In this document: piece after piece, positions 9,025 to 40,592 of the stretch
Layout of the letters: each line of letters begins with the position of its first letter
How positions within the stretch are numbered: position 1 is the first letter of the stretch
NCBI RefSeq assembly: GCF_900188235.1
Contig: NZ_FZNT01000006.1
Location: 1 to 64,000, forward strand
Source: Lutibacter agarilyticus
GTDB lineage: Bacteria > Bacteroidota > Bacteroidia > Flavobacteriales > Flavobacteriaceae
Length of the DNA: 64,000 nucleotides
Direction: 5' to 3'
Notes under the pieces: generated by a model
The model's input: only the letters and a program-made list of their open reading frames with translations
Databases searched by the model: none
Told to the model about the DNA's origin: nothing
Position numbers and translations under genes: made by a program

Positions 9025-9042
9025 TTACTTTCCGATACAACA
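9025..9042 (-). other. Candidate left attachment site (attL), mnmE-tail copy
   Basis: TTACTTTCCGATACAACA matches 15 of 18 bases of 40575-40592, the 3' end of mnmE, in the same orientation. Read on the minus strand it gives codons for C-C-I-G-K-stop, while the mnmE end reads F-C-I-G-K-stop; within CIGK-stop the changes are synonymous. This is what an element that rebuilds the mnmE 3' end would carry. Islands of the SGI1 type integrate at the last 18 bp of trmE (mnmE). Confidence 0.65.
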
Positions 9043-9736
9043 TTTATAAATCCTTATTTTATAGGGGTTTGAAAGAGATGAGGTACAAAAAGGCAAAACA
9101 TGTGACACGGAAATTAGCAATTGTTTGTAACTTTTTTCAAAGATAATCATTTCACCCGTGATTTCACCTCTCTGTAACCCCTTATTTCACTAGGATTTCA
9201 TAAAACTCTCACTTTTTAAGGGTGAAATGTTGACGCATAAAAATAATTAATTTTTTATCAAATTTTCAGCGTTTTTTGTTGGTTACATGTTGCACAAAAA
9301 TTAGAAAGTGAGCAAAATAAGGAAAAACTGAATTTTTTTGAGGTACAATAGGTACAACAAAATACGTAATTCATATAAAAATGCTTTTTTACGAAGTTGA
9401 TTATATAGCTACTTCTTTTTTAGTATTAAGGAATGAGGAAAATCCACACTAAATTACGGGAAACCCATCTTTAATAAGCCTACTGATATTTATCACAGCC
9501 TCTTTAATTTATTTTTTTTATTTTAGCATTGCTATGAATTACACTACGGAAAACCGTACGATTAATCGGATTAAACGTACTAATTTTCAATTTTATTTTG
9601 AAATTGAAAAGAAAGAAAATAGGTCCTCTAGCATAAAACATAAAAGAATAACAAAAAACTGTTTATCCAGTATTATTAAAGGATAAACATGAGTTTTTAA
9701 GGATATAACAAGTTACCTGCAAGCAAAAAAAATGAT
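9043..9736. promoter_or_regulatory. Island left-end region with repeated short motifs
   Basis: No gene is seen in this stretch. AGGTACAA occurs exactly at 9081-9088, 9341-9348 and 9350-9357, and again near the right end at 40447. ATTTCAC occurs at 9149, 9161 and 9184, with a partial copy at 9195 and an inverted copy GTGAAAT at 9222. The spacing and position just inside the attachment site suggest binding sites for recombinase or excisionase. Another small palindrome, ACGGAAAACCGT, lies at about 9546-9557. Confidence 0.5.
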
Positions 9737-11758
9737 ATGAGATTAATAAAAGCAAGAGTACAAAATTTTCGAAGTATAAAAGATACAGGAGAATTTGAAA
9801 TAGAAAAATTAAAAACAATTTTAGTTGGGCCAAATGAATCTGGTAAAACAGTATTATTAAGAGCTTTACAACAGCTTAACAAACCAGATGGTATAGACGG
9901 TTTTGATTTAATTAGGGATTATCCTCGTTCTTTATATAATGATATAACTACTGGCAGTGTAAAGGCCGAAAATATAGAAATAGTTCGTGGATATTTTGAA
10001 CTTGATGAAGAGGATAAAAAACTAGTTCCTGAAGAATATAAAAATTGTACTTATGTACTTTATAGGTTGCTTGACAACAAAGGTCGGCACTGGCTAGACA
10101 ATGCACCTAAAAAAAAAACATATAAAGATATAACAAAAGATTTATCTCGATTAAATGCTCATATTGATAAGCAATTTGAAAAAGATGAAGATTTTGATCC
10201 TGAAAAAAAACCAAGTATTAGATTAAAAATTGTTACAAATGTTTTCTCAGATTCAACCAATCTAACCAAAGAAAACACAACTAGTTTAATTAAAATATTA
10301 GAAGAATTTTATCCTTTAATTGATGAAGAAAATGAAAAAGAAGAAGACAGATACTCAAAGATTATTGAAATAATAGAATTTAATAATAAATATGATGAAG
10401 TACTTAAACTATTAGGTAGTCGTATTCCTGTATTTGTACTTTTTAATAATTATTTCAAAGTTAAACCATCGATTCATTTAGAACATTTAGCTGAACGAAT
10501 AGAAAGAAATCTTTTAGAAGACGATAAATTTTACGATTACGGAAACCTTTGCTTATTAAAATTCTTAGGTTTTAAAGTTCGAGAATTGGCTGATATTGGA
10601 AATACTACAAGTCCTGATAAAAATGATATAGATGAATTAAAAGAGTATAGAGACACTCTAGATAATAGAACTTATCAACTTAATGCTGCAAGTATTAAAT
10701 TAACAAAGGAAATAAAAAATATATGGAACCCTAATCCAAATAGACCTGAAGCTGAAAAAATTAGAATTACAGCTGACGGGCAATACTTAAAGGTGGTTGT
10801 AGAAGATGAAATTGGAGTAGAAATTGAACTTGATCAGCGTTCAGAAGGCTTTCAGTGGATAGTTTCATTTTTTGTAGTATTCTTTGCTGAAGCAATGGAT
10901 AAACATAAAAATGCAATACTTTTGTTAGATGAACCTGGTATGAGTTTACACGGATTAAAACAACGTGACTTTAGAGATACTCTTTCTAGATTATCTATTA
11001 CTAATCAAACTATTTACACAACCCACTCTCCTTTTCTAGTTGGAGCTAATGAATTAGATTTGGTAAGAGTTGTAGAATTAAAAGACCGAGAAGAAGGAAC
11101 AAAAGTTCACACCACATTATCTTCAAGTGACCCAGCAGGATTACTACCGCTTCAAGAAGCTTTGGGATATGATTTGGCACAAAGTTTATTCACTCATCAG
11201 AAAAATTTAATTTTAGAAGGTTTAACTGACTATTGGTATGTTGAAGCAACATCTACAATGTTAAGAGAATCTAATATTATTGATTTTGACAAGAAAATAG
11301 CTTTAGTATTTGCAAATTCAGCAGGGAAAGTTGTTTATTATGCTACAATTTTACATTCTCATAATTTAAAAATTGCGGCTTTATTAGATTCTGATGCAGC
11401 AGGTGACCAAGCAGCTCAACAAGAAAATTTAGTTCACACATTGGGAAATAAAAACATATTAAGAACTAAAGATTATTGTTTAGATGTTAATAAACCTGAA
11501 ATTGAAGATTTATTAAGAGAGACTTTAATAGAAATTGTTAAATCTGAATATTCAAAAGATGTAAAATCAATATCAGATTCTCAACCAACTAGACCAATTA
11601 TAGATATTTTCACTCAAGAAGTTCCAGATTTTTCAAAATATAAATTAGCTAAAGCTTATTTAAGATGGTGCAAAACTAATGAAGCTAAATCATTAACTGA
11701 ATCAGAAATAATATTTTGGAAAAAATTAATTGGAGCAGTAAATAAAGCATTGAAATAG
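9737..11758 (+). CDS. OLD-family ATPase/TOPRIM nuclease
   Basis: 673 aa. Residues 31-38 (GPNESGKT) are the Walker A motif after an SMC-like FRSIKD start. An ABC-type Walker B (AILLLDEPGMSLH) is near residue 394 and is followed by the THSPF switch motif. The C-terminal TOPRIM domain begins with LILEGLTDYWYVEA (near 490) and has LLDSDAAGD (near 549), providing the acidic metal-binding residues of overcoming-lysogenization-defect nucleases. Such proteins cut DNA and protect against phages, alone or with partners. No UvrD-like helicase follows, so it is not Gabija. A small membrane protein gene starts 4 bp downstream and is probably its partner. It is the first gene inside the left end of the island. 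Confidence 0.85.
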   Translation: MRLIKARVQNFRSIKDTGEFEIEKLKTILVGPNESGKTVLLRALQQLNKPDGIDGFDLIRDYPRSLYNDITTGSVKAENIEIVRGYFELDEEDKKLVPEEYKNCTYVLYRLLDNKGRHWLDNAPKKKTYKDITKDLSRLNAHIDKQFEKDEDFDPEKKPSIRLKIVTNVFSDSTNLTKENTTSLIKILEEFYPLIDEENEKEEDRYSKIIEIIEFNNKYDEVLKLLGSRIPVFVLFNNYFKVKPSIHLEHLAERIERNLLEDDKFYDYGNLCLLKFLGFKVRELADIGNTTSPDKNDIDELKEYRDTLDNRTYQLNAASIKLTKEIKNIWNPNPNRPEAEKIRITADGQYLKVVVEDEIGVEIELDQRSEGFQWIVSFFVVFFAEAMDKHKNAILLLDEPGMSLHGLKQRDFRDTLSRLSITNQTIYTTHSPFLVGANELDLVRVVELKDREEGTKVHTTLSSSDPAGLLPLQEALGYDLAQSLFTHQKNLILEGLTDYWYVEATSTMLRESNIIDFDKKIALVFANSAGKVVYYATILHSHNLKIAALLDSDAAGDQAAQQENLVHTLGNKNILRTKDYCLDVNKPEIEDLLRETLIEIVKSEYSKDVKSISDSQPTRPIIDIFTQEVPDFSKYKLAKAYLRWCKTNEAKSLTESEIIFWKKLIGAVNKALK

Positions 11759-11762
11759 TATT

Positions 11763-12242
11763 ATGGATGAAATTTTAAAACCTTCAGTTATTGCATCTTT
11801 TACGGCTTTATGTATATCATTAATTACTTTATATCAATTTTTCAAAAATCAACGTTTTCAACAAAAACAATTTGATAAAAATTTAAATAGAACATTGACT
11901 AATAAACTTTATGATTTGAGAATAGAAAATTATCCATTAGCGTATGAAATAACTGACATTATTTATAAGCATAAAGGAGGTAATTACGATTATCAAGAAT
12001 TAAAAACTGTATTAGAAAATTTAATTGTTTGGAAAAAAGGAATTGTTAATTTAATAATTTCCGTTGAGTGCCGTGATAGTTTTTATGATCTAAGAGATGT
12101 TTTAATGAAAAATCCTGCTAATAATCAGGAATATTCAAAAGAACAAATTGATAAGATATTTCAAGCAAATAAATTCTTTAGAAAACAACTAAGACGTGAT
12201 TTAGGATTTATGTATAGAGAAGAAAGATTAAGAAGGAAATAA
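11763..12242 (+). CDS. Small membrane-anchored protein next to OLD nuclease
   Basis: 159 aa, not recognised as a named family. Residues about 8-26 (VIASFTALCISLITLYQFF) form one transmembrane helix. A basic, glutamine-rich helix follows, then a soluble helical domain with YPLAYEITDIIYKHKGGNY and a charged C-terminus rich in arginine and lysine. It starts 4 bp after the OLD gene stop and ends just before an attC-like element, so the two genes look like one unit. A membrane partner could anchor or be triggered by the nuclease, as in other defence pairs; this is inference from gene order only. Confidence 0.6.
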   Translation: MDEILKPSVIASFTALCISLITLYQFFKNQRFQQKQFDKNLNRTLTNKLYDLRIENYPLAYEITDIIYKHKGGNYDYQELKTVLENLIVWKKGIVNLIISVECRDSFYDLRDVLMKNPANNQEYSKEQIDKIFQANKFFRKQLRRDLGFMYREERLRRK

Positions 12243-12381
12243 AGCCAGCAGGTAACATAGGGTATAAAAAATTGCTTAATTCAATAGAGTAGAATGTTTA
12301 TAAAACATAAAAAAATTAAATTTAAACATCGGAAAATTGCGGTTTCAAACCCGCAACTTTCCATACCCTAAACCGTTGGGC
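12243..12381 (+). repeat. attC-like element upstream of the cassette-like gene
   Basis: TAGGGTAT (12258-12265) is repeated inverted as ATACCCTA (12363-12370), directly followed by AAACC and GTTGGGC (12375-12381), which fits the attC R' consensus GTTRRRY. Inside is a second hairpin at about 12333-12362 (TTGCGG paired with CCGCAA, outer GGAAA with TTTCC). No integron integrase is in the window. Confidence 0.5.
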
Positions 12382-12400
12382 AAAATTAAAAAAAAGGAAA

Positions 12401-13069
12401 ATGACACTTTTAGAATCACTATATAAAATTTGTAAAGAAAACATCGATGAAACTAATGATTGGTATAATTGGAGAAAAATAAATGAATCATTTATTCCTG
12501 ATTCTATATCACTTCCCAAAGGCAATCAATACATCAAAAACATTTACTTGAAAAAGGAACTTAATTCCAAATGGGAGAATGAAATTGATTTAAAAAAACG
12601 AGGAATTTATATTGAGTATTATATAAAAACTTGGGGAGGAATAAAAGGAAATAAAAAAGATTCAATAATAGAATATCAGACAAAGAGTGCTGATGAATTA
12701 ATTAAAAAAGGAGTTAAAGGAATTGCTTCTTGGTCAAAAGCGTTAGTTCTACATAATTATAACAAATATGCTATTTTTGACGCTAGAGTTTCTTGCTCAT
12801 TGAATTGTTTACAGATTATTGATTCAGTTGATGATAAAATTTTATTTCCAATACTTGCAAGTCAAAATAAAACTATCATTACTGCAAATAAAAAATTAAA
12901 AAGAATATCTAAAATTGAGAAATGGGAGATAAGTAATGAAACTACTTTCTATAATCAATATTTGAATACCTTAAAAACTACATCTGAAAAATTAAACACT
13001 AATATTTCAACAGTAGAAATGCTACTCTTTGCAAAAGCTGAGGAATTAATAAATAAATCATCGCTCTGA
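12401..13069 (+). CDS. Unknown protein, possible helix-hairpin-helix glycosylase-like fold
   Basis: 222 aa. The central segment GVKGIASWSKALVLHNYNKY followed by AIFDARVSCSLN has the look of OGG/HhH glycosylase-like proteins that occur in accessory regions (a helix ending in a trp-ser-lys motif, then a D-A-R-V helix). This is a weak, memory-based likeness. The ends are helical, with a lysine-rich C-terminal part. The gene is alone between two inverted 10-base ends (GTTGGGCAAA at 12375 and TTTGCCCAAC at 13077), like an integron gene cassette: start codon about 20 bases after the first end, stop 7 bases before the second. Confidence 0.6.
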   Translation: MTLLESLYKICKENIDETNDWYNWRKINESFIPDSISLPKGNQYIKNIYLKKELNSKWENEIDLKKRGIYIEYYIKTWGGIKGNKKDSIIEYQTKSADELIKKGVKGIASWSKALVLHNYNKYAIFDARVSCSLNCLQIIDSVDDKILFPILASQNKTIITANKKLKRISKIEKWEISNETTFYNQYLNTLKTTSEKLNTNISTVEMLLFAKAEELINKSSL

Positions 13070-13076
13070 TAAAAAC

Positions 13077-13200
13077 TTTGCCCAACAACTCATAAAATTT
13101 ATGCTTAAATTTCAAATAGAACAAATGACAAATGATTTGCTTCGTCCAAAAAAATGTCCAATTTTACAAATGCTCAAATCATAACTTTAAACCGTTGTGA
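13077..13200 (+). repeat. attC-like element downstream of the cassette-like gene
   Basis: TTTGCCCAAC (13077-13086) is the exact reverse complement of GTTGGGCAAA at 12375-12384. GCCCAAC fits the attC R'' consensus RYYYAAC. About 100 bp later AAACCGTTGTGA (13189-13200) repeats the AAACCGTT seen at the left boundary. The stretch after the R'' box shares AACTCATAAAATTTATGC with 2937. Confidence 0.5.
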
Positions 13201-13312
13201 GTATACCATAAATCTAGACTAAATTTAACATTTGAAGAAAAAAACACAATGCTAAAATTGGATTGAGGAAATCCGTAAAGAAATAAACTAAAAAAGAGAT
13301 AATTTAGTCAAA

Positions 13313-13426
13313 TTGAAATATAAAGAACATATTAATCTTACTCATTTAATAAAAGCTTCTGAACAAATTGTTCCGCTAGCAGTAACAATGAGAACAAAAA
13401 TTGATGGGCTTAGAGAGTGTTTCTAA
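13313..13426 (+). pseudogene. Short gene remnant, unrecognised
   Basis: An open stretch of 37 codons ending in a normal stop reads HINLTHLIKASEQIVPLAV and TMRTKIDGLRECF. The residue choice looks like real protein (a helix-rich C-terminus), but there is no good start codon and nothing coding upstream, so it is likely the tail of a lost gene. The rest of 13201-13448 holds nothing else recognisable. Confidence 0.35.
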
Positions 13427-13448
13427 AACATAAAAATATATATCATCT

Positions 13449-13865
13449 ATGAATCTATTTCCTATTAAAAGTTTAAATTATAGTAAGTTAATTTTCCTTT
13501 TGTTTTTATCATTGAGTGCCTGTATGACTAGTTCTAAAATAGCAGAAACAGAAATTGAGTTCGTTCAATTTGGTACAGGTGGTGGTTTTACAGGTGAAAT
13601 AAAAACGTATATGCTAAATTCAAGAGGTGAGCTTTTTGAGAATGATAGTCTACTTAAAAGTATTGATTTAAAGGCAACCTTAACATTGTTCAAATTAGCA
13701 AAAGAAATAAGTGATTATGAATTTAAAGAAACTGGAAATATGTATTCGTATATCATAATTAAAAAAAGAGAAATTACTAATAGAATTGTTTGGTCTTTTG
13801 GTAACACGAAAGTTAATCAAGATGTTATTGAATTTTACAAAAAATTAAAAACGACAACAAAATAA
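13449..13865 (+). CDS. Putative lipoprotein of unknown function
   Basis: 138 aa. A hydrophobic N-terminal segment ends in the lipobox SLSAC (Cys25). The mature part starts with a FVQFGTGGGFTGEIKTYML segment, a small beta-rich domain seen in many short Bacteroidota lipoproteins, and continues with alternating strands and helices. Function unknown. It ends 7 bp before the M4 protease start, so the two may be co-transcribed. Confidence 0.65.
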   Translation: MNLFPIKSLNYSKLIFLLFLSLSACMTSSKIAETEIEFVQFGTGGGFTGEIKTYMLNSRGELFENDSLLKSIDLKATLTLFKLAKEISDYEFKETGNMYSYIIIKKREITNRIVWSFGNTKVNQDVIEFYKKLKTTTK

Positions 13866-13872
13866 ATAAACT

Positions 13873-16800
13873 TTGAAAAAAAATCACATTAAACCGTTAG
13901 GAATCATTTTATTAATCTTGATTTCTTCTTATTCTTTTGGACAAGTAAAACAGCAATCTGCTCCAAAATTTAAAAACCCATTCCAAAGTAAGTCTACTAA
14001 AGATACAGCTCAAATAAAATCGCCTATAATTGGTAATAAGACAGTACCTATTCCTCAAGGTAAACCAAAGATTAAATTGGATAATGGTTCTTTTTCAGTT
14101 AACCTTAAAAAGGATAAATTAGCTAAAGCAACGGCACTAAAAGAATTTAGCGCCTGGTTACCTATGAATGATAGCAAATATTCATTTGAACAAGTATCTG
14201 AAAAAACTGATAAACTTGGTTATACTCACACTAATTTACAACAGTTTTATAATGGTTACCCAATAGAGGGGAAGGTTGTTATGTTGCATTCTAAAAATAA
14301 TATGGTCACTGCAATGAATGGACAATTATCAGATTTACCAACTATTAAAACCATGTCAACTATTACTTCAGTACAAGCCACAGAAATAGCAAAAAACTAT
14401 TTAAATGTTACAGAGCTAATTCAAGAATATCCTGTGGAAAAGGTTATTACTCAAATTTCTGGGAGTGAAAAAAAGGAAACTAGGTTGGCTTATAAAATAA
14501 GAATTGATTCCAATGCTCCTTTTATGATGTATCATGTTTATATTGATGCCGAAACTGCGGTTGTACTTAAAAAAGTCAGTTTGATTGCTCATACGGATAC
14601 TCCTGGTACAGGTAAAACGCTTTATAGCGGTACACAAGACATTACAATTGATAGTTATTCTGGTGGATATCGTCTTAGAGAACAGGGAAGAAAAATTGAA
14701 ACATATGATGCCACGAATGCAACTTTTGTAAATAATACAGGTTTCACTGGGTCTTCAGATTATGTTAGTTCTTCAACTGATTGGGTTGGTGTTTCGAGAT
14801 TAAGCTCGTTTTCAATTTCAGCAGTTTCAAAGACTTGGTGGTATGCCGCTTTTGCTGATCAAATACCAGATTTATATATTGTTATCAAAGATGCTTCAAA
14901 TCAAAAAGTTTACACATCTAAGTATGTAAGTGATGCAAATCCACCTTTAACATTTAATAATATTAATTTAAATCTTACGAATGGACCTTATAAAGTAGAA
15001 ATTTGGGATTATGATACTTTTGGAGGGGATGATTTTGGTGGAAGTTATATTATTTCAGCTGATGTTGGAACTGGAAGTTGGTCCGGAAGTGGTAATGTTG
15101 GTACTTATGAGGTTGTAACATCTAGCTTAGCTTCTTTGGATGTTCATTGGGGGATGGAACAAACTTATGATTTTTATTTAAATGTTTTTGGTAGAGATAG
15201 TTATGATGGTTTAGGAAGTGTAATAAAGCAGTATATTAATCCGCCAGCTTTACAAAGTGAAAAAGGAGAAAGTCCTAATAATGCTTATGCTATGCCAGCA
15301 CCATATAATATGATGGCTTATGGACTTGGGGATGGTGTACGAATGAATCCAGTAGTTGGGCTTGATGTTGAGGGGCATGAGTTTACTCATATGGTTGTTG
15401 ATAACAATGGGAATGGAGGACTGGCTTATGAAGGTGAATCTGGAGCTTTGAACGAATCTTTTGCAGATATTTTTGGAGTTAGCGTAGAATTTTATTCAGG
15501 AGTAAATCCAGATTGGTTTATGGGAGAGGATATTATGGTGAGTGAACCTTTTTTGAGATCTATGTCAAATCCAAATGATAGCAATGGCCCAGATACTTAT
15601 AATGGTACACATTGGGTGGATCCTTCAAATTTGGATTATGATCACGGAGGGGTGCATACGAATAGTGGGGTTCAAAACTTTTGGTTTTACCTACTTAGTG
15701 AAGGAGGGACAGGAACTAATGATTTGGGTAATCCTTATGCTGTAACTGGTATTGGAATTTCTGAGGCTCAACAAATTACTTATAGAAATTTAATCACTTA
15801 TTTGGGGTCTAATGCTACTTATTTAGACGCATATTATGGCTCATTACAAGCAGCTGAAGATTTATATGGAAATGGATCTGTTCAATACAATTCTGTTAGA
15901 GAAGCTTGGTATGCAGTAGGGATTGGAAATGATGCAAGTGATTCTTGTAGTGGTGTAATAGAATTAACGGAGGTTAGCGGTACTGTTACAGATGGTAGTG
16001 GTTCTTCTAATTATATTAATAACGCAAATTGCACATGGGTTATAGCACCAGCAGGAGCTTCTCAGATTTCATTAGATTTTACGGAATTGAATACTGAATT
16101 AAATTTTGATACAGTATATCTGTATGATGGTCCAGATGAAACATATCCAGTGATAGCAACTTTGACTGGTACTGTTTTACCTTCAACTATTACAACAACT
16201 TTAGGAGTAGGAGCTATGTGCATAAAATTTGTTTCAGATGCTTACACTACAAGTAGCGGTTGGAGTGCAAATTATACAACGATTATTAAAGAAGGAGAAA
16301 CTTGTCATGGAAGTACTGTTTTTGCATCGAATTCAGGGAGTTTTAGAGTTGGATCAGATATTAGTGGTTATGGGAATAATCAAAATTGTTATTATTTTAT
16401 ATCACCTCCTTGTGCTGAATCGGTGACACTTTCATTTTCTGAGTTTGATACAGAATTGGATTATGATGGTGTTATTATTTATGACGATTGGGAAGGAAAT
16501 AATCAGTTAGCTGTTTATTCTGGTATAAGTATTCCAGCTTCAGTTACGTCAAACACAGGTCAAATGTTAGTGATTTTTGTTTCTGATCATTCTAATATAA
16601 TGAAAGGTTTTTCGGCAGATTATACTTCTACTGGTGCTGATAACTACGGTGAAATAACTGTTTTAAATACGACTGATTATGGAATCATTTCTGATGGTAG
16701 TGGTTTAAATAATTATTGTAATAATCAGGAAAATAGCTGGTTGATCCAACCACCACAAGCTACAAGTATTACGTTAACTTTTACTGAGTTTGCTGTAGAA

Positions 16801-17613
16801 GAAGCTTCTTCTGATGGGGCTACAATTTATGATGTGGTTGAGGTTTATGACGGAGCAACAACCAGCTCAACACTTTTAGGGCGATTTACCGGAGCAAACT
16901 TACCACCTGTTATCACTTCTTCAGGTAGTAGTTTATTAGTAAGATTCAATTCAGATTTAGACATTAATGACAAAGGCTGGGAAGCATATTACACTTCAAC
17001 ACAAAATTCGTATTGCTCAAATGGTATAGTATTATCAGCGGCAAATGGAACGTTTTCTGATGGTAGTAATACAGATAATTATACTAATAATAGTATTTGC
17101 TCCTGGCTTATACAACCATCTAATACAAGTTCTATTTCTCTTTCATTTACAGAATTTAATACCGAGATTGATTATGATGGAGTTGTTGTGTATGATGGAG
17201 CAGATAGTTCTGCACCAATTTTAGGTCAATTTTCAGGAACAAGCTTACCGCCTTCAATCAATTCTACTGGAGGTGTTATGTACATTGAATTTTTATCGGA
17301 TATAGCAAATAGGGAACAGGGGTGGACTGCAAGTTATACGTCTACTAGTACATTAGGGATTTCAGATAGCTTTTTTAAATCAAATTTAAAGGTTTTTCCA
17401 AATCCTTCAGATGGTATTTTTACCATTAAATCTAATTTTAATGAGCCAGTAAATTTTGAAATGTTTGACGTATTAGGTAGGGAAGTTTTAAAAATGAATA
17501 AATTAGATATAGGAATTAATGAAATTAATGCAACTAAATTGTCTTCAGGAACGTATTTAATTAAATTTACAAATGAATATGGGAGTTATATTGAGAAGTT
17601 AATTATCAATTAA
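13873..17613 (+). CDS. Secreted M4 (thermolysin-like) metalloprotease with four CUB domains and T9SS tail
   Basis: 1246 aa, TTG start at 13873 chosen because it gives a clean signal peptide (MKKNHIKPLGIILLILISS, cleavage near SFGQ). Residues about 75-240 are the FTP/PepSY propeptide. The catalytic domain has GHEFTH near 500, the glutamate in GALNESFAD near 526 and the catalytic histidine in GGVHTNSG near 594. A C2-like segment (PDLYIVIKDASNQKVYTSKY to WDYDTFGGDDFGG) appears inserted in the N-terminal catalytic lobe at about 320-395. Four CUB domains follow (about 695-800, 810-915, 920-1040, 1045-1155). The C-terminal ~75 residues (KVFPNPSDGIFTIKS, YLIKFTNEYG) are a type A sorting domain for type IX secretion. 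It probably degrades extracellular protein. Confidence 0.92.
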   Translation: MKKNHIKPLGIILLILISSYSFGQVKQQSAPKFKNPFQSKSTKDTAQIKSPIIGNKTVPIPQGKPKIKLDNGSFSVNLKKDKLAKATALKEFSAWLPMNDSKYSFEQVSEKTDKLGYTHTNLQQFYNGYPIEGKVVMLHSKNNMVTAMNGQLSDLPTIKTMSTITSVQATEIAKNYLNVTELIQEYPVEKVITQISGSEKKETRLAYKIRIDSNAPFMMYHVYIDAETAVVLKKVSLIAHTDTPGTGKTLYSGTQDITIDSYSGGYRLREQGRKIETYDATNATFVNNTGFTGSSDYVSSSTDWVGVSRLSSFSISAVSKTWWYAAFADQIPDLYIVIKDASNQKVYTSKYVSDANPPLTFNNINLNLTNGPYKVEIWDYDTFGGDDFGGSYIISADVGTGSWSGSGNVGTYEVVTSSLASLDVHWGMEQTYDFYLNVFGRDSYDGLGSVIKQYINPPALQSEKGESPNNAYAMPAPYNMMAYGLGDGVRMNPVVGLDVEGHEFTHMVVDNNGNGGLAYEGESGALNESFADIFGVSVEFYSGVNPDWFMGEDIMVSEPFLRSMSNPNDSNGPDTYNGTHWVDPSNLDYDHGGVHTNSGVQNFWFYLLSEGGTGTNDLGNPYAVTGIGISEAQQITYRNLITYLGSNATYLDAYYGSLQAAEDLYGNGSVQYNSVREAWYAVGIGNDASDSCSGVIELTEVSGTVTDGSGSSNYINNANCTWVIAPAGASQISLDFTELNTELNFDTVYLYDGPDETYPVIATLTGTVLPSTITTTLGVGAMCIKFVSDAYTTSSGWSANYTTIIKEGETCHGSTVFASNSGSFRVGSDISGYGNNQNCYYFISPPCAESVTLSFSEFDTELDYDGVIIYDDWEGNNQLAVYSGISIPASVTSNTGQMLVIFVSDHSNIMKGFSADYTSTGADNYGEITVLNTTDYGIISDGSGLNNYCNNQENSWLIQPPQATSITLTFTEFAVEEASSDGATIYDVVEVYDGATTSSTLLGRFTGANLPPVITSSGSSLLVRFNSDLDINDKGWEAYYTSTQNSYCSNGIVLSAANGTFSDGSNTDNYTNNSICSWLIQPSNTSSISLSFTEFNTEIDYDGVVVYDGADSSAPILGQFSGTSLPPSINSTGGVMYIEFLSDIANREQGWTASYTSTSTLGISDSFFKSNLKVFPNPSDGIFTIKSNFNEPVNFEMFDVLGREVLKMNKLDIGINEINATKLSSGTYLIKFTNEYGSYIEKLIIN

Positions 17614-17706
17614 TTTTATGAATAAAAATAAACTTCAAATACTAAAAAATTTAGTTCAAAATAGAGCAACATCAACTACAATTTAAAAATAAATAACCAT
17701 AAGAAT

Positions 17707-18447: not shown

Positions 18448-18472
18448 ATGAAATAAATTTTAAAAATTAACT

Positions 18473-18850: not shown

Positions 18851-18866
18851 TAATAATTTATATAAA

Positions 18867-22934: not shown

Positions 22935-22935
22935 A

Positions 22936-25864: not shown

Positions 25865-25865
25865 T

Positions 25866-32660: not shown

Positions 32661-32662
32661 AT

Positions 32663-34939
32663 ATGGCTAAATCAGATAATATGTTATTCAGTACTGTAAC
32701 CCTTGAAAATATAAAAACTGCAGTTGACGAATTCAATGAAAAAGGAACTCCTGATGGTTTTAGTACTTCAAAATATTATGATGTAAAAATTGATGGAGTT
32801 TTATATCCACCAATGCCCATCATGGCCATTGCCAATTATTATGCTACTGATAGAAAAGTGGAGAATTATTTTTCAGGAGGTGAAAATACACCTTGCTTTA
32901 AAGCATATCAAAGATTAGGAATTGAAATTATAACAAAGTCAAATAATATGTTAGAAAAGTTCAAATACCAATATTTATCACTCCCTATTTATCTGTTAAT
33001 TAGACTTTCTAAAGAGAAATTTAGTATAGACAATATAGATAATATTGTAAGAGATCTGCAAAATTTTCGAAATACGGAGAAGGGAACCATCACTCAAAAC
33101 CTTTTTCAAAAAGCATTTGATTGGGGAAGTGAAGATAAAAACAAAGCCATCAATTTATATCGATTAATGTTGAATGGTGATGAAAATGCTTTTAATCAAT
33201 TAAGAGTTAGTGAAATTCTAGAATTCTCGAAATTGAAAGATATTAGTTTAGAGGAATTGGAAGCCAAAATTAATAAAAATAAGGGAAGTTGGATTATACC
33301 ATCCGGATTCGAAAACAAATTTGACTTTCCTGAAATGCTTTCTAAATTTTTAGAACAAGCTAAAACCAATAATTTAAAAACGAAGCAGTATCCAAAAACA
33401 TACGGAGAACTTAAAGTTAAAGTAAGTTTTGGAGCAGGAAATCAAGCTGAAATTCCTTGGATAGCCTTGTTAAAAGAACCTAATAGAGTTACTGAAGGGA
33501 TTTATCCGGTTTATCTATATTTCAAAAAAGAACAAACGATCATTTTAGCTTATGGATTAAGTGAAACGATTAACCCAACTGCTATATGGAATATTGAGGA
33601 TCCAACGACTATCACTAATTATTTTTATAAAAATGGTCTTGGAACCCCTAAACATTATGGTAGTTCTTATGTTTACAAGGTATATGATGTGAACGATTTA
33701 CCAGATGAAGCGATTTTAAATGATGATTTAGATGGGATATTATCTATTTACAACCACCAAGAGGAGCCTATTTCAATTGTAGTAGATACCGAAGGTTTAG
33801 TAGAGCCTGAAACAATTATTGAACAAGAAGATTTTAAACTCTCAAAATTAATAGAAGATGCAGCAATATCAGGTTTGTTATTTAGTGATAAACTACTTAC
33901 ACGTTTTGTGAGTTCCTTAATTACTAAGCCATTTGTTTTATTAAGTGGCTTGTCTGGTTCTGGAAAGACAAAATTGGCACAAACATTTGCAAAATGGATA
34001 TGTGAAAGCGATCAACAATATTGCGTTGTACCAGTTGGAGCAGATTGGACCAATAGAGAGCCTTTATTAGGGTATGAAAACGCACTAGATAGTAAAGAAT
34101 ATGTTTTACCTGAAAATGGTGCTTTACAATTGGTTATCAATGCGAATAAGAAACTTCATAAACCTCATTTTTTAATTTTAGATGAAATGAATTTGAGTCA
34201 TGTAGAGCGTTATTTTGCAGACTTTTTAAGTGTTATGGAGTCTAAAGAAAAGTTTAAGTTGCACAGTGATCAAGAGGTTCTAAAATCAAAGGTTCCATTT
34301 GAATTGCAATGGCCAAAAAATTTGTTTGTAATAGGAACTGTAAATATTGATGAGACTACATATATGTTTAGTCCGAAAGTATTGGATAGAGCCAATGTTA
34401 TTGAATTTAGAGTGCAAGAGGAAGAAATAGCTACCTTTTTAAACGCACCAAACGATATTAATTTCGAACATTTAATTGGGAAAGGAAGTACTATGTCCCA
34501 AGATTTTATTGGAATGGCGGCGAATGGTACTAATAGTATAATTTCTGAAAATTTAAACACTGCGTTGGTTTCATTTTTTGGACAATTGAAAAAAACAGGT
34601 ACTGAATTTGGTTATAGAACAGCGATGGAAATACACAGGTTGTTTCATCAACTGGCTGTTGTAAACCCAGATTTGTCTGAAAATGAACAAATAGATATTG
34701 CGATAATGCAGAAACTATTGCCAAAATTACATGGTTCTAGACGTAAACTTTGTCCGGTGTTAGAAAGTTTAGGGAAGTTATGCGTGGATAACGTAGATGT
34801 TAAAAAAGCCTACTTTGAAAATTCTACAGATCTAAATTATGATACTGAATCTGTTATTTATCCTTTATCGCTTGAAAAGATCACCAGAATGTATAAAGGA
34901 TCCATTGATAATGGTTTTGCTAGTTACGCTGAAGCATAA
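32663..34939 (+). CDS. McrB-like AAA+ GTPase/ATPase of type IV restriction
   Basis: 758 aa. An N-terminal domain (about 1-90) with YYDVKIDGVLYPPMPIMAIA resembles the modified-DNA sensor domains of McrA/McrB-like proteins. A DUF3578 (MrcB_N) domain follows at about 230-355 (EIPWIALL to VYLYFKKEQTIILAYG). The AAA domain has Walker A SGLSGSGKT near 433 and Walker B LILDEMNLSHVERYF near 505, then NIDETTYMFSPKVLDRANV, the sensor region. McrB hydrolyses nucleotide and drives the partner nuclease. The partner gene follows after 3 bp. Modification specificity is unknown. Confidence 0.9.
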   Translation: MAKSDNMLFSTVTLENIKTAVDEFNEKGTPDGFSTSKYYDVKIDGVLYPPMPIMAIANYYATDRKVENYFSGGENTPCFKAYQRLGIEIITKSNNMLEKFKYQYLSLPIYLLIRLSKEKFSIDNIDNIVRDLQNFRNTEKGTITQNLFQKAFDWGSEDKNKAINLYRLMLNGDENAFNQLRVSEILEFSKLKDISLEELEAKINKNKGSWIIPSGFENKFDFPEMLSKFLEQAKTNNLKTKQYPKTYGELKVKVSFGAGNQAEIPWIALLKEPNRVTEGIYPVYLYFKKEQTIILAYGLSETINPTAIWNIEDPTTITNYFYKNGLGTPKHYGSSYVYKVYDVNDLPDEAILNDDLDGILSIYNHQEEPISIVVDTEGLVEPETIIEQEDFKLSKLIEDAAISGLLFSDKLLTRFVSSLITKPFVLLSGLSGSGKTKLAQTFAKWICESDQQYCVVPVGADWTNREPLLGYENALDSKEYVLPENGALQLVINANKKLHKPHFLILDEMNLSHVERYFADFLSVMESKEKFKLHSDQEVLKSKVPFELQWPKNLFVIGTVNIDETTYMFSPKVLDRANVIEFRVQEEEIATFLNAPNDINFEHLIGKGSTMSQDFIGMAANGTNSIISENLNTALVSFFGQLKKTGTEFGYRTAMEIHRLFHQLAVVNPDLSENEQIDIAIMQKLLPKLHGSRRKLCPVLESLGKLCVDNVDVKKAYFENSTDLNYDTESVIYPLSLEKITRMYKGSIDNGFASYAEA

Positions 34940-34942
34940 ATT

Positions 34943-37216
34943 ATGACAGGAAAAAGCTCCATTATTATTCCATTAGATTTTATAGAACAGGATCTAAATC
35001 TTTTTATAGATGATAAAAGGAATGAAACCTTGTTTTACGCAGAGGATGCCTTACGTAATAATGAAGCCCCTTTTCAAATTCAAGAAGGGAATTTTTACGA
35101 TTATGAGTTTAGTAGTGAGGACTTTTATTTTCAAAAAACTGAAACGATACAACCACATAGAAGAAAGGCTTATACTGGGCAAATAGCACCCAATATTTAT
35201 GTAGGTACTTTAACGCTGGAGATTTATAAAAAAGACATTGATAAGTCCGTTGGAACATTAAAATTAGAAGTACAATCTATCAAATCTGAATATCGCGAGG
35301 ATTATAGGTATATGTTGGAAAGTATTACTGAGAAATGTACCGATTTAATTTTGCAATCGAACTCACCAGTTAGTCATTCTTTTCAAACAGATTATAATAT
35401 TGATAGTAAGACTTTATACCAGCGCTTTGCTTTTATAAAATCTATTATCCAGTCGGATGACTTTGAAGAGGCTATTCATAGAATTATTACATCACCAACA
35501 ACCATTTGGAAAGAAAAAGAAGAAAAGGTTGATGTTAGGAAAATGAAACGATTTAATGCTAACGCTGTAAAGCAGTTGGTTAATGGTTCTAATAGGGTTT
35601 CTTTAAACTCTGGGCATCCGTTATCCAGAAGAGGTCTTACTACGGTGTCCGACAAGATAAATTCAACTAAGAAAACTGAAAATGTTGATACCAATGAAAA
35701 TAGGTTTATAAAACATGCCTTAAATACTTTTTTAAAGTTTTGTATTGATTTACAGTCACATCCGAAAGCGGGAGACCGATTGAAGAAGGAAGCTGATCTT
35801 GTGATCAATACTTTGGAGAACCATTTACAACATAGTTTATTTAAGGAAATATCTAGACCAGAAACCTTGAAATTGAATAGTCCTATTTTACAGCGAAAAG
35901 AAGGGTATAGAGAGGTTTTGAAAGTGTGGTTGATGTTTGATTTGGCGGCTAAATTAATTTGGGAAGGTGGTGAGGATATTTATAGTGGCGGTAAAAAAGA
36001 TATTGCCACATTATATGAATATTGGTTGTTTTTTACACTCTTAGACATATTTCAGAAGAAGTTTGAAATTGAACCAAAGGAATTAGAGAAATTAACAAAT
36101 TACAATTCTAAAACTAAAAACTTAAATCTTCAATTAAAGCAGGGGAGATTCACAGCTTTAAAAGGGGTTTATATCTCTCATTCCAGAGCCTTGAATGTGA
36201 AATTTAATTACAATCGAAGTTTTTCAGGAGCTTCTGTTTACCCTAGTGCAGGTAGTTGGACTACCACTATGCGACCAGATTATACACTTTCATTTTGGCC
36301 TAAAGAATTAAAAGAAAAGGAGGCAGAACAAACAGAGCAAATCGTTCATATTCATTTTGATGCAAAGTATAAGATTAATAAAGTTGATGAAATTATAGGA
36401 AATAGATCAGGTGCCACTGAAGTGGAACTAAATGAAGAAAAGTTAGCACAAAAAAAGGGAACTTATAAAAATGCAGATTTGTTGAAAATGCACGCTTATA
36501 AAGATGCTATTAGAAGAACAGGCGGTGCTTACGTATTATATCCTGGAACTGAACAGACAACCAAAATTGGATTTCATGAGATATTACCTGGACTTGGGGC
36601 TTTTTCAGTAAAACCATCAAAAATAAATGTGGAAACAAGTCATGTGGAAGCATTCATAGATAAAGTAATTGCACATTTTGTCAATAGATCTACTCAGCGT
36701 GAAAACCTAGCTACTAAGACCTATGATATTCATAATACAGCGATTATTAATAAACTGAAACAACCTATACCAGAGTATTTAAATAATAGAAAATTAATTC
36801 CTGATGAAACTTTTGTACTGGTAGGGTATTACAATTCAGTAGAGCAATATAATTGGATAAACACAAAAAAATTATATAATTTTAGAATGGGAAGTACCGC
36901 AGGGTCTTTAATATTGGATAAAGAAACTGTAGATGCAAAATTTTTACTATTACATGGTAGAGGAGATCAACATTCAAATGAGTTATGGGAAATAAAAAGT
37001 AAAGGGCCTAAAGTATATTCAAAAGATAATTTGATTTCAAAAGGCTATATCAATCCTTCCTCAGATCATTATCTAGTGATTGAAATTGAAAAGGTAGATC
37101 TAAATAATTTTGGAAATCAAAATTGGAACTTTAAAAAACTCAAAAATTATAAAAAGGGAAGGGCTTCATCTTTGCCGTTTACCTGCTCATTAACAGAGTT
37201 GATGTTAAATTCTTAA
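34943..37216 (+). CDS. McrC-like DUF2357/DUF524 nuclease
   Basis: 757 aa. The N-terminal region is DUF2357-like (RKAYTGQIAPNIYVGTLTLEI, then ENRFIKHALNTFLKFCIDL). The nuclease region has HFDAKYKINKVDEI near 470 and KMHAYKDAIRRTGGAYVLYPG, the PD-(D/E)XK motif of DUF524. The last ~140 residues (LIPDETFVLVGYYNS, KFLLLHGRGDQHSNELWEI) form an extra domain not in minimal McrC, possibly a second DNA-recognition module. With McrB it should cut modified DNA. Its 3' end is duplicated as a remnant at 5710-5875. Confidence 0.85.
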   Translation: MTGKSSIIIPLDFIEQDLNLFIDDKRNETLFYAEDALRNNEAPFQIQEGNFYDYEFSSEDFYFQKTETIQPHRRKAYTGQIAPNIYVGTLTLEIYKKDIDKSVGTLKLEVQSIKSEYREDYRYMLESITEKCTDLILQSNSPVSHSFQTDYNIDSKTLYQRFAFIKSIIQSDDFEEAIHRIITSPTTIWKEKEEKVDVRKMKRFNANAVKQLVNGSNRVSLNSGHPLSRRGLTTVSDKINSTKKTENVDTNENRFIKHALNTFLKFCIDLQSHPKAGDRLKKEADLVINTLENHLQHSLFKEISRPETLKLNSPILQRKEGYREVLKVWLMFDLAAKLIWEGGEDIYSGGKKDIATLYEYWLFFTLLDIFQKKFEIEPKELEKLTNYNSKTKNLNLQLKQGRFTALKGVYISHSRALNVKFNYNRSFSGASVYPSAGSWTTTMRPDYTLSFWPKELKEKEAEQTEQIVHIHFDAKYKINKVDEIIGNRSGATEVELNEEKLAQKKGTYKNADLLKMHAYKDAIRRTGGAYVLYPGTEQTTKIGFHEILPGLGAFSVKPSKINVETSHVEAFIDKVIAHFVNRSTQRENLATKTYDIHNTAIINKLKQPIPEYLNNRKLIPDETFVLVGYYNSVEQYNWINTKKLYNFRMGSTAGSLILDKETVDAKFLLLHGRGDQHSNELWEIKSKGPKVYSKDNLISKGYINPSSDHYLVIEIEKVDLNNFGNQNWNFKKLKNYKKGRASSLPFTCSLTELMLNS

Positions 37217-37315
37217 TGAAAAACATTATTCGGCCAAGTAGTTCTTAAACACTTTACGCGATAATGCCATTTTATAGCTCAAAATTCACTCATTGTTTAT
37301 TTTTCCTAATACGAA

Positions 37316-37786
37316 TTAAACAATATTATCTAATGAGTTTATATAATTTGGATCTTCTAAATATATTAATGAACTGGTTGCCATATCAAAATAGGGCAGG
37401 GCACCATCATATCTACGATCCATATTTTGTATTAAAAAAAATCGAGTGCTAATTAACCTTTTAATTTCATCTAAATCACCTTTGGTTGCTGGTTTATTTT
37501 CCTTTGAAACAAATAAGTTTTTTGCGTATGCTGTTGCAGCATTTGCAGCTAATGTACCAGCCATAGCATTTCCAACCCCAGCTGCACTCATAGCTTCAAC
37601 TTTCATTTTTTCCTGTTGTACAGCAAGTGCTTCAGAGAGGTGGTCTATAGGTTTTTTAATAGCTTTCTTTTTCTTGTGTTGGTGGTTTTTGTTTCTACAA
37701 GTATCAGAACAAAATTTTTGAGCTTTTCGTCTTGTAGGTATAAATTCATTTTGGCAAAATTGACAGGTATAGTATTTTTCTTCCAT
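37316..37786 (-). CDS. Zinc-ribbon protein of the recombinase operon
   Basis: 156 aa. The N-terminus has CQFCQNEF and FCSDTCRNKNHQHKKKK, a C4 zinc ribbon with a basic tail. A small hydrophobic, alanine-rich stretch (MSAAGVGNAMAGTLAANAAT) follows. Function unknown; such proteins accompany recombinase genes in Bacteroidota islands. It is the last gene of the four-gene recombinase cluster and lies between McrC and the HTH protein. Confidence 0.6.
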   Translation of the reverse strand: MEEKYYTCQFCQNEFIPTRRKAQKFCSDTCRNKNHQHKKKKAIKKPIDHLSEALAVQQEKMKVEAMSAAGVGNAMAGTLAANAATAYAKNLFVSKENKPATKGDLDEIKRLISTRFFLIQNMDRRYDGALPYFDMATSSLIYLEDPNYINSLDNIV

Positions 37787-37838
37787 GGGGTTTTTAATAT
37801 TAAGCGTAAAGGAAACGTTTGTTTTACGTATAATTGTT

Positions 37839-38612
37839 TTAGAAACGGTGTTTTAATAAGTATTCGTTGGCTTTGTCTTCAATATCATCTTTAGTTGTTC
37901 CCTTTCCTTTTTCTAGCCAGTCTATAATTTCTGATTTCTTAAATTGCAACTTAGCACCATTTTTATAAAACGGAATTTTACCTTTATGTCTTAAATCATA
38001 AATAGTAGGAACTGCATAATTTGTGAGTTCAGAAACTTCTTTTACGCTTAAAAAAACATCCTTTATTTGCTCATCTTTTTTGATAGGAGCTTTTGAAGGT
38101 TTTGGTGTAGGATACAATTTTTCTCCCAGTTGTTTATATAATGGAGTATTATAAACAGATCCGCCATAGTTTTTTATTTCAAACTTTTTAAAGTTATTCA
38201 ACTCGTACATTAATTTGTAAATAGGATGGTAGTTACTAAACAAATTAGCTGTTTTACTTATGGCATCATAAATGGCTATAGATTTGATAAAACCTTCCAG
38301 ATTAAAACTTTTTTGTTGATTGTTTTTCTTCAGAAGAGGAATAATTTTATGATTTAAAATTTTATTTATAGCATCATCTTCAAACATAATCTCACGATCA
38401 TTAAATAGCGTTAAATACTCAGATTTACGAGCTACAGGAATGTTGTTTAATGCGCGTTGTTTGTAATGAGAAACTTGATCTGATAATTCTCTATAACTAT
38501 AATCATAAGTGTAACCAATATTTTTTAACTTGATGAGGTTTCTTTTGAGTAACTTTTCTGAAATAGAAAGATAGCTGTTTAGTGTATTGTTATATAATTT
38601 GTTATAATCCAT
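37839..38612 (-). CDS. HTH (excisionase-like) protein
   Basis: 257 aa. The N-terminal ~190 residues are helical and basic, unrecognised. The C-terminal segment DVFLSVKEVSELTNYAVPTI followed by YDLRHKGKIPFYKNGAKLQF is a MerR/Xis-type helix-turn-helix (HTH_17), the fold of recombination directionality factors. It overlaps the end of the integrase gene by 11 bp. It may act as the excisionase. Confidence 0.75.
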   Translation of the reverse strand: MDYNKLYNNTLNSYLSISEKLLKRNLIKLKNIGYTYDYSYRELSDQVSHYKQRALNNIPVARKSEYLTLFNDREIMFEDDAINKILNHKIIPLLKKNNQQKSFNLEGFIKSIAIYDAISKTANLFSNYHPIYKLMYELNNFKKFEIKNYGGSVYNTPLYKQLGEKLYPTPKPSKAPIKKDEQIKDVFLSVKEVSELTNYAVPTIYDLRHKGKIPFYKNGAKLQFKKSEIIDWLEKGKGTTKDDIEDKANEYLLKHRF

Positions 38613-39738
38613 TCAAGTTTAATTTTATGCGGTTAGCAGCTTCAATCTTATTTTTATTAATAACCTTAGTGTAGATTTGAGTTGTATTCACATTTTTATG
38701 CCCCAATAATTTTGAAACAGTATAAATATCTGTTCCATTGGCTAATTGGAGGGTAGCATAACTATGCCTAAAATTATGGAAGCTAATTTTTTTATGAATT
38801 TTTGCTTTTTCAATCCAAGGTTTTAAATACCGAGCAACGTCATTATAATTCAAACTAGTAAAAACTTTACCCTCGGTTGTTCCTTCTTGTTTTAGTATAT
38901 CGTGGGCATCATTAGCAATTGGATGATTGTGAATGTTGCCAGTTTTTTGTTCTTTTAGTTTTATATAATATCCTTGATGAATGTCTCCAAAGATAGTTTC
39001 CCATGTTAAATTTTTAATATCAACAAAGCGTAAACCCGTTAAAGCCGAAAATAAAGCCGCTCTTTTAATTTGTGGAAATTTAATATCTGTATTCCATAAT
39101 TTAATTAATTCTTCTTCCGTAAGGTATTCCCTAAAAGTTTGCTCTTGCTTAATATATTCAGTTTGTTTAGCAAGATCTATTGAGATGATATTTTCTTTGA
39201 AAGCTCTTTTTAGTACAAATATGAAATGTTTGTAATATGTTGCAGCTGTATTTTGTGCTAATTTACTTTTACTAGATTTTAAACTAGTTGTTGTTAAAAG
39301 AAACTCTCGATATTTATAGGCTATTGCCAGTGTTAAATTTTGTGAGCTGATTTTGTTACCAATAAATGATTTAAAATAGTTAAATGAAGCCTGCCAACTC
39401 AAAGCATTGTTTTTAGATCCATTATTGAAGTACTCCAGAACAATAGCGTAATAGTAATCTACAAAATTAATATTGACTTCAATATTTTCCTTAAAACCGA
39501 ATTCTTTGTTTTTTAACTGTACCAGTCTTTTTGCCCTAATCACTTCTGCTAACTCAATGGTAGTTTTATTGTGTTCTCTTTCAAATTGGTTTTTTGGATA
39601 GTCGTGAATTTTTAATTTTAAAAACTCACGTCTGGTTTCTTTACCAGTTTTAGGACTTATGATAGGAGGAAAGTAGTCTAAATATAAACTAGTTTTATCA
39701 TTTGCTATTTTTTTATGTCGTAGGGTTACATTAGCCAT
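38602..39738 (-). CDS. Tyrosine recombinase (integrase)
   Basis: 378 aa. The N-terminal ~100 residues are an Arm_DNA_bind-like domain, then a SAM-like core-binding domain (FNYFKSFIGNKISS to AYKYREFLL). The catalytic domain has the first arginine in ALTGLRFVDIKNLTW (near 236), HNFRHSYATL near 320 (H-x-x-R), LLGHKNVNTT and the nucleophile tyrosine in QIYTKV near 357. All key residues are present, so it should be active. The gene lies within 1 kb of the candidate right attachment site at the mnmE 3' end. Confidence 0.93.
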   Translation of the reverse strand: MANVTLRHKKIANDKTSLYLDYFPPIISPKTGKETRREFLKLKIHDYPKNQFEREHNKTTIELAEVIRAKRLVQLKNKEFGFKENIEVNINFVDYYYAIVLEYFNNGSKNNALSWQASFNYFKSFIGNKISSQNLTLAIAYKYREFLLTTTSLKSSKSKLAQNTAATYYKHFIFVLKRAFKENIISIDLAKQTEYIKQEQTFREYLTEEELIKLWNTDIKFPQIKRAALFSALTGLRFVDIKNLTWETIFGDIHQGYYIKLKEQKTGNIHNHPIANDAHDILKQEGTTEGKVFTSLNYNDVARYLKPWIEKAKIHKKISFHNFRHSYATLQLANGTDIYTVSKLLGHKNVNTTQIYTKVINKNKIEAANRIKLNLNGL

Positions 39739-40415
39739 TATTGTTCGGGGTTTTTAGGTTTACCAAATAATTTTATAATATCTTTTTTTAGCACATAAAC
39801 AAACCTTCCTTTTTTTATTTTTTCTATGCTATTCTTTTTAATATGACGATCAATGGAGCGGTTTGATAAATTATAATATCTTGATATTTCACCTACGCTA
39901 AAATAACTATTATTATCATCTTTCTTGCCTTCATTTAAAATAATTTCCTCTGAATATTCATTTTCAAATTGATTGGTGATCAAGTTTTTCAAGTCTTTTT
40001 TTCTAATGATTACTCTAGCTCCAAATTTTGCTGCTTTCAGGTGTTTGTTTTTTATTAATCTTTGTACTGAAGACATGCTAATTCCTAATAGAACCATTAC
40101 ATCTTTCATACTTAACAAATCTTTTGCTTTTATAGTTTTTAGATGAGTATCATAAGGGATGATTTCATCATTTTGAATTAATGGTTTTTCACTGTCATTT
40201 TTTTTCTTTTTTCGTGCTTTTTTTCTGTAGTGCTCCTGATTACACTTGTGGCTACAATATTTGGTTTTTAATGTTTGTGCCATGAATTGCTTACCACAAT
40301 AGCTACATTTTTTTGCGATTTTCATACAGTACGTTTTTAGATTTTTATGGTCCTTTTTAGTCCTGATAAGTCCATACAAGTCTGGATCGGTCAGAAACTC
40401 CTCAACACTCGTCAA
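39738..40415 (-). CDS. Double HTH_17 protein with zinc ribbon
   Basis: 225 aa from a TTG at 40415; an internal ATG at 40325 (codon 31) just before the zinc ribbon is an equally possible start. The zinc ribbon is KCSYCGKQFMAQTLKTKYCS then HKC. Two helix-turn-helix domains follow (LLSMKDVMVLLGISMSSVQR and YFSVGEISRYYNLSNRSIDR). Two such domains suggest binding to paired sites at the element end. The stop overlaps the integrase start by one base, so the two are coupled. Likely a regulator or directionality factor. Confidence 0.7.
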   Translation of the reverse strand: MTSVEEFLTDPDLYGLIRTKKDHKNLKTYCMKIAKKCSYCGKQFMAQTLKTKYCSHKCNQEHYRKKARKKKKNDSEKPLIQNDEIIPYDTHLKTIKAKDLLSMKDVMVLLGISMSSVQRLIKNKHLKAAKFGARVIIRKKDLKNLITNQFENEYSEEIILNEGKKDDNNSYFSVGEISRYYNLSNRSIDRHIKKNSIEKIKKGRFVYVLKKDIIKLFGKPKNPEQ

Positions 40416-40446
40416 GCAATGTAATTTTTCATACTTTTTTTAAAAA

Positions 40447-40465
40447 AGGTACAATAAATGTACAA
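40447..40465 (+). promoter_or_regulatory. Right-end copies of the AGGTACAA motif
   Basis: AGGTACAA at 40447-40454 and ATGTACAA at 40458-40465 repeat the motif found three times near the left attachment site, in the same orientation. They lie between the recombinase operon and attR, as arm-type sites would. Confidence 0.5.
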
Positions 40466-40503
40466 AAACAATCTAAATATTACGTTTTTTTACAAAATGG
40501 AAA

Positions 40504-40559
40504 GGTCCGAAAACAAAGAGAAACTGTTGATAACTCTAGGTTTTCGGACCTTTTTTTTT
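40504..40559. terminator. Bidirectional terminator downstream of mnmE
   Basis: GGTCCGAAAAC (40504-40514) pairs with GTTTTCGGACC (40540-40550), an 11-bp stem with a 25-base loop, followed on the plus strand by nine T. On the minus strand it sits 16 bases after the mnmE stop and could stop mnmE transcription just inside the island. Confidence 0.75.
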
Positions 40560-40574
40560 GTAATTTTTTGTAAA

Positions 40575-40592
40575 TTATTTGCCGATACAAAA
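40575..40592 (-). other. Candidate right attachment site (attR) at mnmE 3' end
   Basis: The last 18 bp of mnmE, reading F-C-I-G-K-stop on the minus strand, match 9025-9042 at 15 of 18 positions, with CCGATACAA identical. It is the chromosomal half-site position expected for mnmE-targeting islands. Confidence 0.65.

Follow-up and report, generated by a model that had tools for sequence, protein, structure and literature searches.

The 3′ end of mnmE in Lutibacter agarilyticus (Flavobacteriaceae, Bacteroidota) raises the question of whether the 31.5 kb behind it are ordinary chromosome or a mobile element that has landed on the gene. The locus lies in the first 64,000 nucleotides of contig NZ_FZNT01000006.1 (assembly GCF_900188235.1), hereafter the window, from a genome of 4.1 Mb. 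A sequence-only reading of this DNA had proposed an island bounded by two copies of the last mnmE codons, which encode C-I-G-K-stop. That proposal is supported by the linkage of a recombinase gene to mnmE, by the recurrence of far C-I-G-K-stop copies in relatives, by island ends shared between genomes and by the empty site of one relative. We conclude with high confidence that the segment is an integrated genomic island at the mnmE 3′ end, bounded by copies of the final codons of the gene and moved by the adjacent recombinase.

The mnmE gene (40575–41960, minus strand; TrmE_N, MMR_HSR1 and MnmE_helical domains) keeps an intact frame at the insertion. Its final 18 bp (40575–40592, minus strand) encode F-C-I-G-K-stop and form the mnmE-proximal attachment copy, the far copy (9025–9042, minus strand) reads C-C-I-G-K-stop, and between them lie the 31,532 bp of the island (9043–40574). 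The two 18-mers are identical at 15 of 18 positions in the same orientation, their longest common run being the 9 bp CCGATACAA (plus strand), so that the repeat is positioned, oriented and coded as first described. The reported spacing also holds, the far copy beginning 25 positions past the last base (9000) of a transporter open reading frame (ORF). The differences between near and far copy had been called synonymous; this is true of two (GGC/GGA and AAA/AAG), and the third swaps Phe for Cys directly before the motif. On both strands of the window, the far copy is the sole 15/18 match besides mnmE itself, and the next best three reach 14/18. When the 40.5 kb behind mnmE were dinucleotide-shuffled 200 times, the C-I-G-K-stop codons arose in 3 of the shuffles. 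Taken alone, the pair of copies is modest evidence by such shuffles, and it is therefore the comparative data that carry the case for an island. At 30 loci (the window and 29 relatives) the MnmE C-terminus reads C-[I/V]-G-K, with I at 29 and V at one; the pattern used for this listing required C-x-G-K, so that it speaks for the presence of the motif and is no measure of its conservation.

The recombinase gene lies just inside the mnmE end, on the minus strand. It encodes a tyrosine recombinase of 378 aa (38602–39738) with Phage_int_SAM_5 and Phage_integrase domains (PF13102 and PF00589), a core-binding plus catalytic layout preceded by about 90 N-terminal residues that have no Pfam match. R237, K265, H321, R324, H347 and Y356, which we take to be the catalytic set, are among the invariant columns in an alignment of 31 relatives; the recombinase is full length, and its predicted catalytic residues are conserved. 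The RKHRH pentad is mentioned in the available part of PMC8138268. Next to the recombinase are a Cys-rich, excisionase-like protein with two HTH_17 stretches (39738–40415, minus strand; phrog_66, TIGR01764) and, behind it, an HTH_17 protein with an excisionase-family domain (37839–38612, minus strand). Most homologues of the former align from about residue 31, and its true start may therefore be near 40325. Counterparts of both adjoin the recombinase in relatives, and a small Cys-motif protein (37316–37786, minus strand) is the fourth gene of a recombinase module common to them. The complete recombinase and helix-turn-helix (HTH) partners placed here by the sequence-only reading are thus confirmed. 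Elsewhere in the genome there are nine further, much weaker recombinase matches, 27–46% identical over part or most of their length.

The position of this recombinase behind mnmE is a property of its relatives as well. Within the genus, a match at E 1e-30 or better is present in 11 of 38 genomes (including that of the window), in every case right behind mnmE and on its strand. The same is true of 12 out of 12 full-length relatives from named genomes (43–77% identical), which belong to Lutibacter, Aestuariibaculum, Tamlana, Flavobacterium and Chryseobacterium; three also belong to the genus set, and two partial matches from other phyla (L126 and L127) are left out of the count. Across the family, 63 of 397 genomes (again including that of the window) hold 65 matches at E 1e-55 or better; with one match at a contig start (G103) left out, 57 of the 64 loci examined sit 186–1048 bp behind mnmE. 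At the level of the phylum, 34 of 395 genomes gave 40 matches at E 1e-50 or better, of which 30 were examined and 20 lay behind mnmE. These sets overlap, and their counts are not additive. A tree of 106 recombinases chosen by similarity to the window’s protein, labeled as mnmE-linked (90), dnaK-linked (3) or other (13), requires 6 label changes versus a mean of 15.4 for shuffled labels, with none of 200 shuffles as low, its deep branches being weak. L297 was excluded from this tree because it is too short (241 aa), L285 and L298 because they repeat the genes of L241 and L266, and L114–L116 because their genomes are those of L092–L094; L274 is close to L125, yet shows no mnmE within its 1.5-kb flank. 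Use of the mnmE 3′ end in Bacteroidota, as first suggested for this genome, is therefore borne out, and is common to many relatives rather than special to one. Three relatives (L258, L266 and L299) lie behind a dnaK-like gene instead, presumably dnaK, as named by eye from translations. These dnaK-linked relatives suggest a switch to another protein-gene end.

Far copies of the mnmE end recur in these genomes. Downstream DNA was read in 20 carriers of the recombinase (those from the wider family and phylum sets are not included), and a single far C-I-G-K-stop copy, in the mnmE orientation and 8.6–34.7 kb away, is present in 15 of the 18 with more than 19 kb. No such copy occurs on the opposite strand in 32 regions (20 carriers and 12 non-carriers), and this strand is the better control because the non-carrier regions span only 14–35 kb, shorter than most carrier distances. 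Near and far copies agree at 17 of 18 positions in two sister islands. By eye, the window, L. maritimus and Lutibacter MAG13 have similar sequence over the final tens of bases leading to the far copy, up to TGTTGTATCGG, and diverge beyond it; this sets the island end at the far copy without recourse to the 15/18 match. In G010 (L075/L110), 57 bp behind the far copy resemble the sequence behind mnmE at 88%, which suggests that two elements stand in tandem there, perhaps joined at the far copy.

A filled and an empty site can also be compared. In F. aquaticum (G060), bases 59–856 behind the far copy match bases 59–856 behind the mnmE stop codon of G467 at 81%, and on this alignment the Flavobacterium pair shows the filled and the empty state of one site. 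At the window’s own locus, the far copy is flanked on its chromosomal side by an amino-acid-permease family transporter gene (6820–9000, plus strand), which had been expected to adjoin mnmE in relatives. This is seen for none of ten other orthologues in the genus (E 1e-150 or better), and the transporter is not a conserved mnmE neighbor: four orthologues (G009, G011, G019 and G040) are on the mnmE contig at about 174–305 kb, five are on other contigs, where a contig break between transporter and mnmE is possible, and one is in a genome (G016) where no mnmE was found. Next to the transporter are a YchJ-like gene and a 119-aa gene (5911–6643, minus strand). This pair lies 6.9–7.6 kb behind mnmE in G009, a genome without such a recombinase; in G020 its distance behind the far copy is 8.1–8.9 kb, versus 2.3–3.1 kb in the window. 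YchJ is near mnmE in only these two of eight other YchJ genomes; G023 has YchJ and mnmE on one contig, about 79 kb apart, and in the remaining five YchJ is off the mnmE contig or no mnmE was found. The varying positions of transporter and YchJ indicate that the neighborhood turns over between species.

Several observations weigh against an island so defined. A match of at least 15/18 in the same orientation arose in 20 of the 200 shuffles of the DNA behind mnmE, the window’s copies share no more than that, and G+C is alike inside (0.300) and outside (0.306 and 0.319) the island. Three of the 18 carriers (G006, G017 and G042) have no far copy within 33–59 kb, and two of the 12 non-carriers (G012 and G024) do have a C-I-G-K-stop copy on the mnmE strand. 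Exceptions to the linkage comprise 7 of the 64 family loci (a dnaK-like gene precedes two, and the other five, which are near-identical, show no mnmE) and 10 of the 30 phylum loci (two behind dnaK and eight without mnmE in the flank); the phylum flanks cover only about 1.5 kb upstream, and that of L248 less than 400 bp, so that some loci counted as off mnmE have uncertain sites. The first 58 bp behind the F. aquaticum and G467 sites do not align, and no empty site for the window’s own locus was found among the 10 other genus genomes with a transporter orthologue.

The two non-carriers have contents of their own. In G012 (L067), a type III CRISPR-Cas set (about 2392–14910) separates mnmE from a copy that matches its end at 18 of 18 positions; the set comprises Cas10, RAMPs, a weak Cas6b match, a reverse transcriptase, Cas1 and Cas2, and no recombinase is among the ten genes scanned. 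In G024 (L071), the stretch beyond the copy resembles the stretch behind mnmE in G022 (L018; 78% over 1349 bp), so that an insertion of another kind is probable at mnmE in G024.

For an island of this kind, the inner ends suggest how integration could proceed. The motif TTGTACCT occurs only four times in the window, always on the minus strand: at 9081–9088, 46 bp inside the far copy; twice at 9341–9357, 306–315 bp inside it; and at 40447–40454, 121 bp inside the mnmE end. Across this island and those of L. maritimus and Lutibacter MAG13 (about 95 kb in all) there are 12 copies, all on one strand, and 11 of them are no more than 330 bp from an end. We infer that the recombinase would join the attachment site of the circular island to the last mnmE codons, and excise it again, with the crossover most likely inside the shared TTGTATCGG. 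Integration would bring in island-borne final codons, and mnmE would thus stay whole, with the displaced chromosomal end left 31.5 kb away beside the transporter. The HTH_17 proteins are probable directionality factors, and the TTGTACCT repeats are candidate arm sites, probably bound by a putative N-terminal arm domain of the recombinase. Just inside mnmE, a hairpin followed by a T run (40501–40559, plus strand; identified by eye) is a candidate terminator that may shield mnmE from island transcription; the minus-strand stretch there has a folding z of -7.25.

The cargo appears rich in likely anti-phage genes, as judged from domain and model matches. A type I restriction-modification system on the plus strand (20562–27602) comprises hsdR (20562–22934), hsdM (24434–25864) and hsdS (25866–27602), with an AlbA_2/HATPase gene (22936–24441, plus strand) between hsdR and hsdM. 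A 12-bp tandem repeat of 7.8 copies (24104–24196) lies inside the latter gene. Also on the plus strand are an McrB-like AAA protein (MrcB_N, AAA_5; PADLOC PDC-M26A) paired with a DUF2357/PDDEXK_7 nuclease that has no PADLOC match (32663–37216), a KAP NTPase resembling PifA (29738–32404), an AAA_15 ATPase resembling AriA, OLD and GajA (9737–11758), and a thermolysin-like M4 peptidase that has four CUB stretches and ends in a secretion-sorting tail (13873–17613); a PKD protein is also among the cargo. Of 14 islands mapped in relatives, nine were used. Among 97 of their 133 ORFs of at least 150 aa (the 36 beside the recombinase were removed by hand), N6_Mtase was matched eight times, HSDR_N four times, RAMP three times and McrBC twice. 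The PADLOC model with the most matches at E 1e-25 had 8 among the 97 island proteins versus 2 among 97 flanking proteins (from 108) of the same genomes, these being counts per model and not numbers of defense genes; one type I system match and one type IIG match also came from the flanks. Activity of these putative defense genes would give the island a role against phages.

The mixture of defense-type genes with a secreted CUB peptidase and a PKD protein could also mean that the island is composite and stranded. The recombinase module at mnmE would then be real and the cargo accreted stepwise, in a block that no longer moves as one; this agrees with the reading given above on origin and differs on present mobility. 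The greater divergence of the window’s copies than of those in the two sister islands, and the lack of any recognized transfer gene, point the same way. Against it, the recombinase is full length with its presumed catalytic residues conserved, and the arm-like sites are kept at both inner ends, placed as in the sister islands. We regard present immobility as a possibility to be kept in mind, with the odds somewhat against it.

A self-transmissible or mobilizable element, that is, an integrative and conjugative element (ICE) or an integrative and mobilizable element (IME), or else a prophage, at mnmE is a further reading, in whose favor the strategy of targeting a gene 3′ end is that of SGI1-type elements in the available parts of PMC9035990 and PMC8409611. 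Bacteroidota plasmid records and records labeled phage contain relatives of the recombinase, up to 39% identical over most of its length, and Bacteroidota and integron integrases are among the matches listed in these plasmid and phage protein searches. A more distant mnmE carrier, L068 (G008), has DUF6617, BT4734-like and primase-like DUF3987/PriCT_2 genes behind its recombinase, perhaps forming a replication module; none of these was seen in the window island. A Pfam scan of 23 island proteins, to which ORFs below 90 aa and origin-of-transfer-type (oriT-type) DNA sites were not added, revealed no relaxase, conjugation or phage structural family. PHROGs, applied to ten of the 23, returned integration/excision, HTH, HNH-like or unknown families or nothing, with no structural match, and IMG/VR yielded a lone partial recombinase relative, 29% identical. 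An ICE, IME or prophage is on this evidence unlikely. As no transfer gene was recognized, movement of the island between cells would need the help of another element, or the island no longer moves. Finally, a coincidental 15/18 repeat around ordinary chromosomal genes, for which the frequency of such matches in shuffles and the even G+C would speak, is very improbable, as it is already contradicted by the comparative data (the same arrangement in most carriers with none on the opposite strand, and shared island ends) and by the scarcity of the C-I-G-K-stop codons in shuffles.

Further side observations concern DNA outside the island near the contig start and beyond mnmE. Two arrays of repeats of about 250 bp lie at the contig start (1–630 and 1438–1954), and a perfect 7-bp tandem repeat (AAGTGAG, 10.4 copies, 41981–42053) lies just upstream of the mnmE start codon. 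Further on, the ORF at 48825–49313 resembles by eye both ends of the neighboring ORF at 46953–48740, which we take to be AMP-dependent synthetase-like, with the middle missing.

Islands at this gene are familiar from Gammaproteobacteria, where SGI1, PGI1, PGI2, AGI1 and MGIVchHai6-like islands occupy trmE/mnmE according to the portions available of PMC7449626, PMC9035990 and PMC8409611; in the available text of PMC5704250, SGI1 and MGIVchHai6 are the only elements listed for trmE. Predicted type I restriction systems are found on several trmE islands, and tandem occupancy of the site is possible (PMC7449626; PMC9035990, in part). The window island resembles SGI1-related and MGIVchHai6-like elements in its location at the 3′ end of the gene, its tyrosine recombinase and 18-bp sites shared with SGI1-related elements, and differs in host phylum. 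The E. coli mnmE end is TTCTGTATTGGTAAGTAA, and in three E. coli genomes where the sequence behind this gene is interrupted, the insertion is a different one, not SGI1. No family of SGI1-type transfer, replication or regulator genes appeared in the Pfam scan of the 23 island proteins, which included no direct comparison with SGI1 proteins. The element works like an SGI1-type site-specific island and is not classed as an SGI1 member, because its transfer and regulator genes are unrecognized and the recombinases were not compared by sequence. The sequence-only reading had supposed a recombinase different from that of SGI1; in the available part of PMC8138268, SGI1 recombinases are grouped with Bacteroidetes integrases in the IntCTnDOT subgroup, which has arm-binding domains. 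The core-binding plus catalytic layout of that subgroup (CTnDOT, NBU1) is also found in the window recombinase, a comparison by description only; the window island differs from CTnDOT/NBU1-type elements in targeting the mnmE end and in having no recognized conjugation genes. Islands with dusA-specific integrases likewise use one tRNA-modification gene as target and carry varied cargo, and differ in targeting the dusA 5′ end versus the mnmE 3′ end here (PMC4482086; PMC8409611, both in part). Among Flavobacteriales, excerpts describe an island of Riemerella that lies behind a tRNA gene and has 19-bp repeats (PMC9745183) and a Riemerella ICE near the arginyl-tRNA synthetase gene (PMC6491836), and a word search of the available text of these two papers and PMC5395568 found neither mnmE nor trmE. 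Literature searches for mnmE, trmE or thdF with integrases or islands in Bacteroidetes, Flavobacterium or Bacteroides found no such report, for the wider searches among the entries listed, and the TIGER/Islander table (PMC12424338) may already list such islands. Islands at mnmE are thus a known kind; it is the Bacteroidota host group and the recombinase lineage at this gene that we did not find in print.

Overall, the segment is very likely a genuine island integrated at mnmE, within a recombinase lineage of many Bacteroidota that mostly keeps the mnmE target. It is conceivable, and for now doubtful, that an old Bacteroidota lineage which mostly lands on the mnmE C-I-G-K-stop shuttles defense genes between genomes and that SGI1 recombinases may have inherited their target from it instead of acquiring it on their own. 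The finding widens the integration hot spot at mnmE beyond Gammaproteobacteria to Bacteroidota, and it defines the ends of a set of defense-rich islands, so that their cargo can be catalogued. It also raises the question of whether the common mnmE target reflects shared recombinase descent, or only a highly conserved gene end suited to landing.

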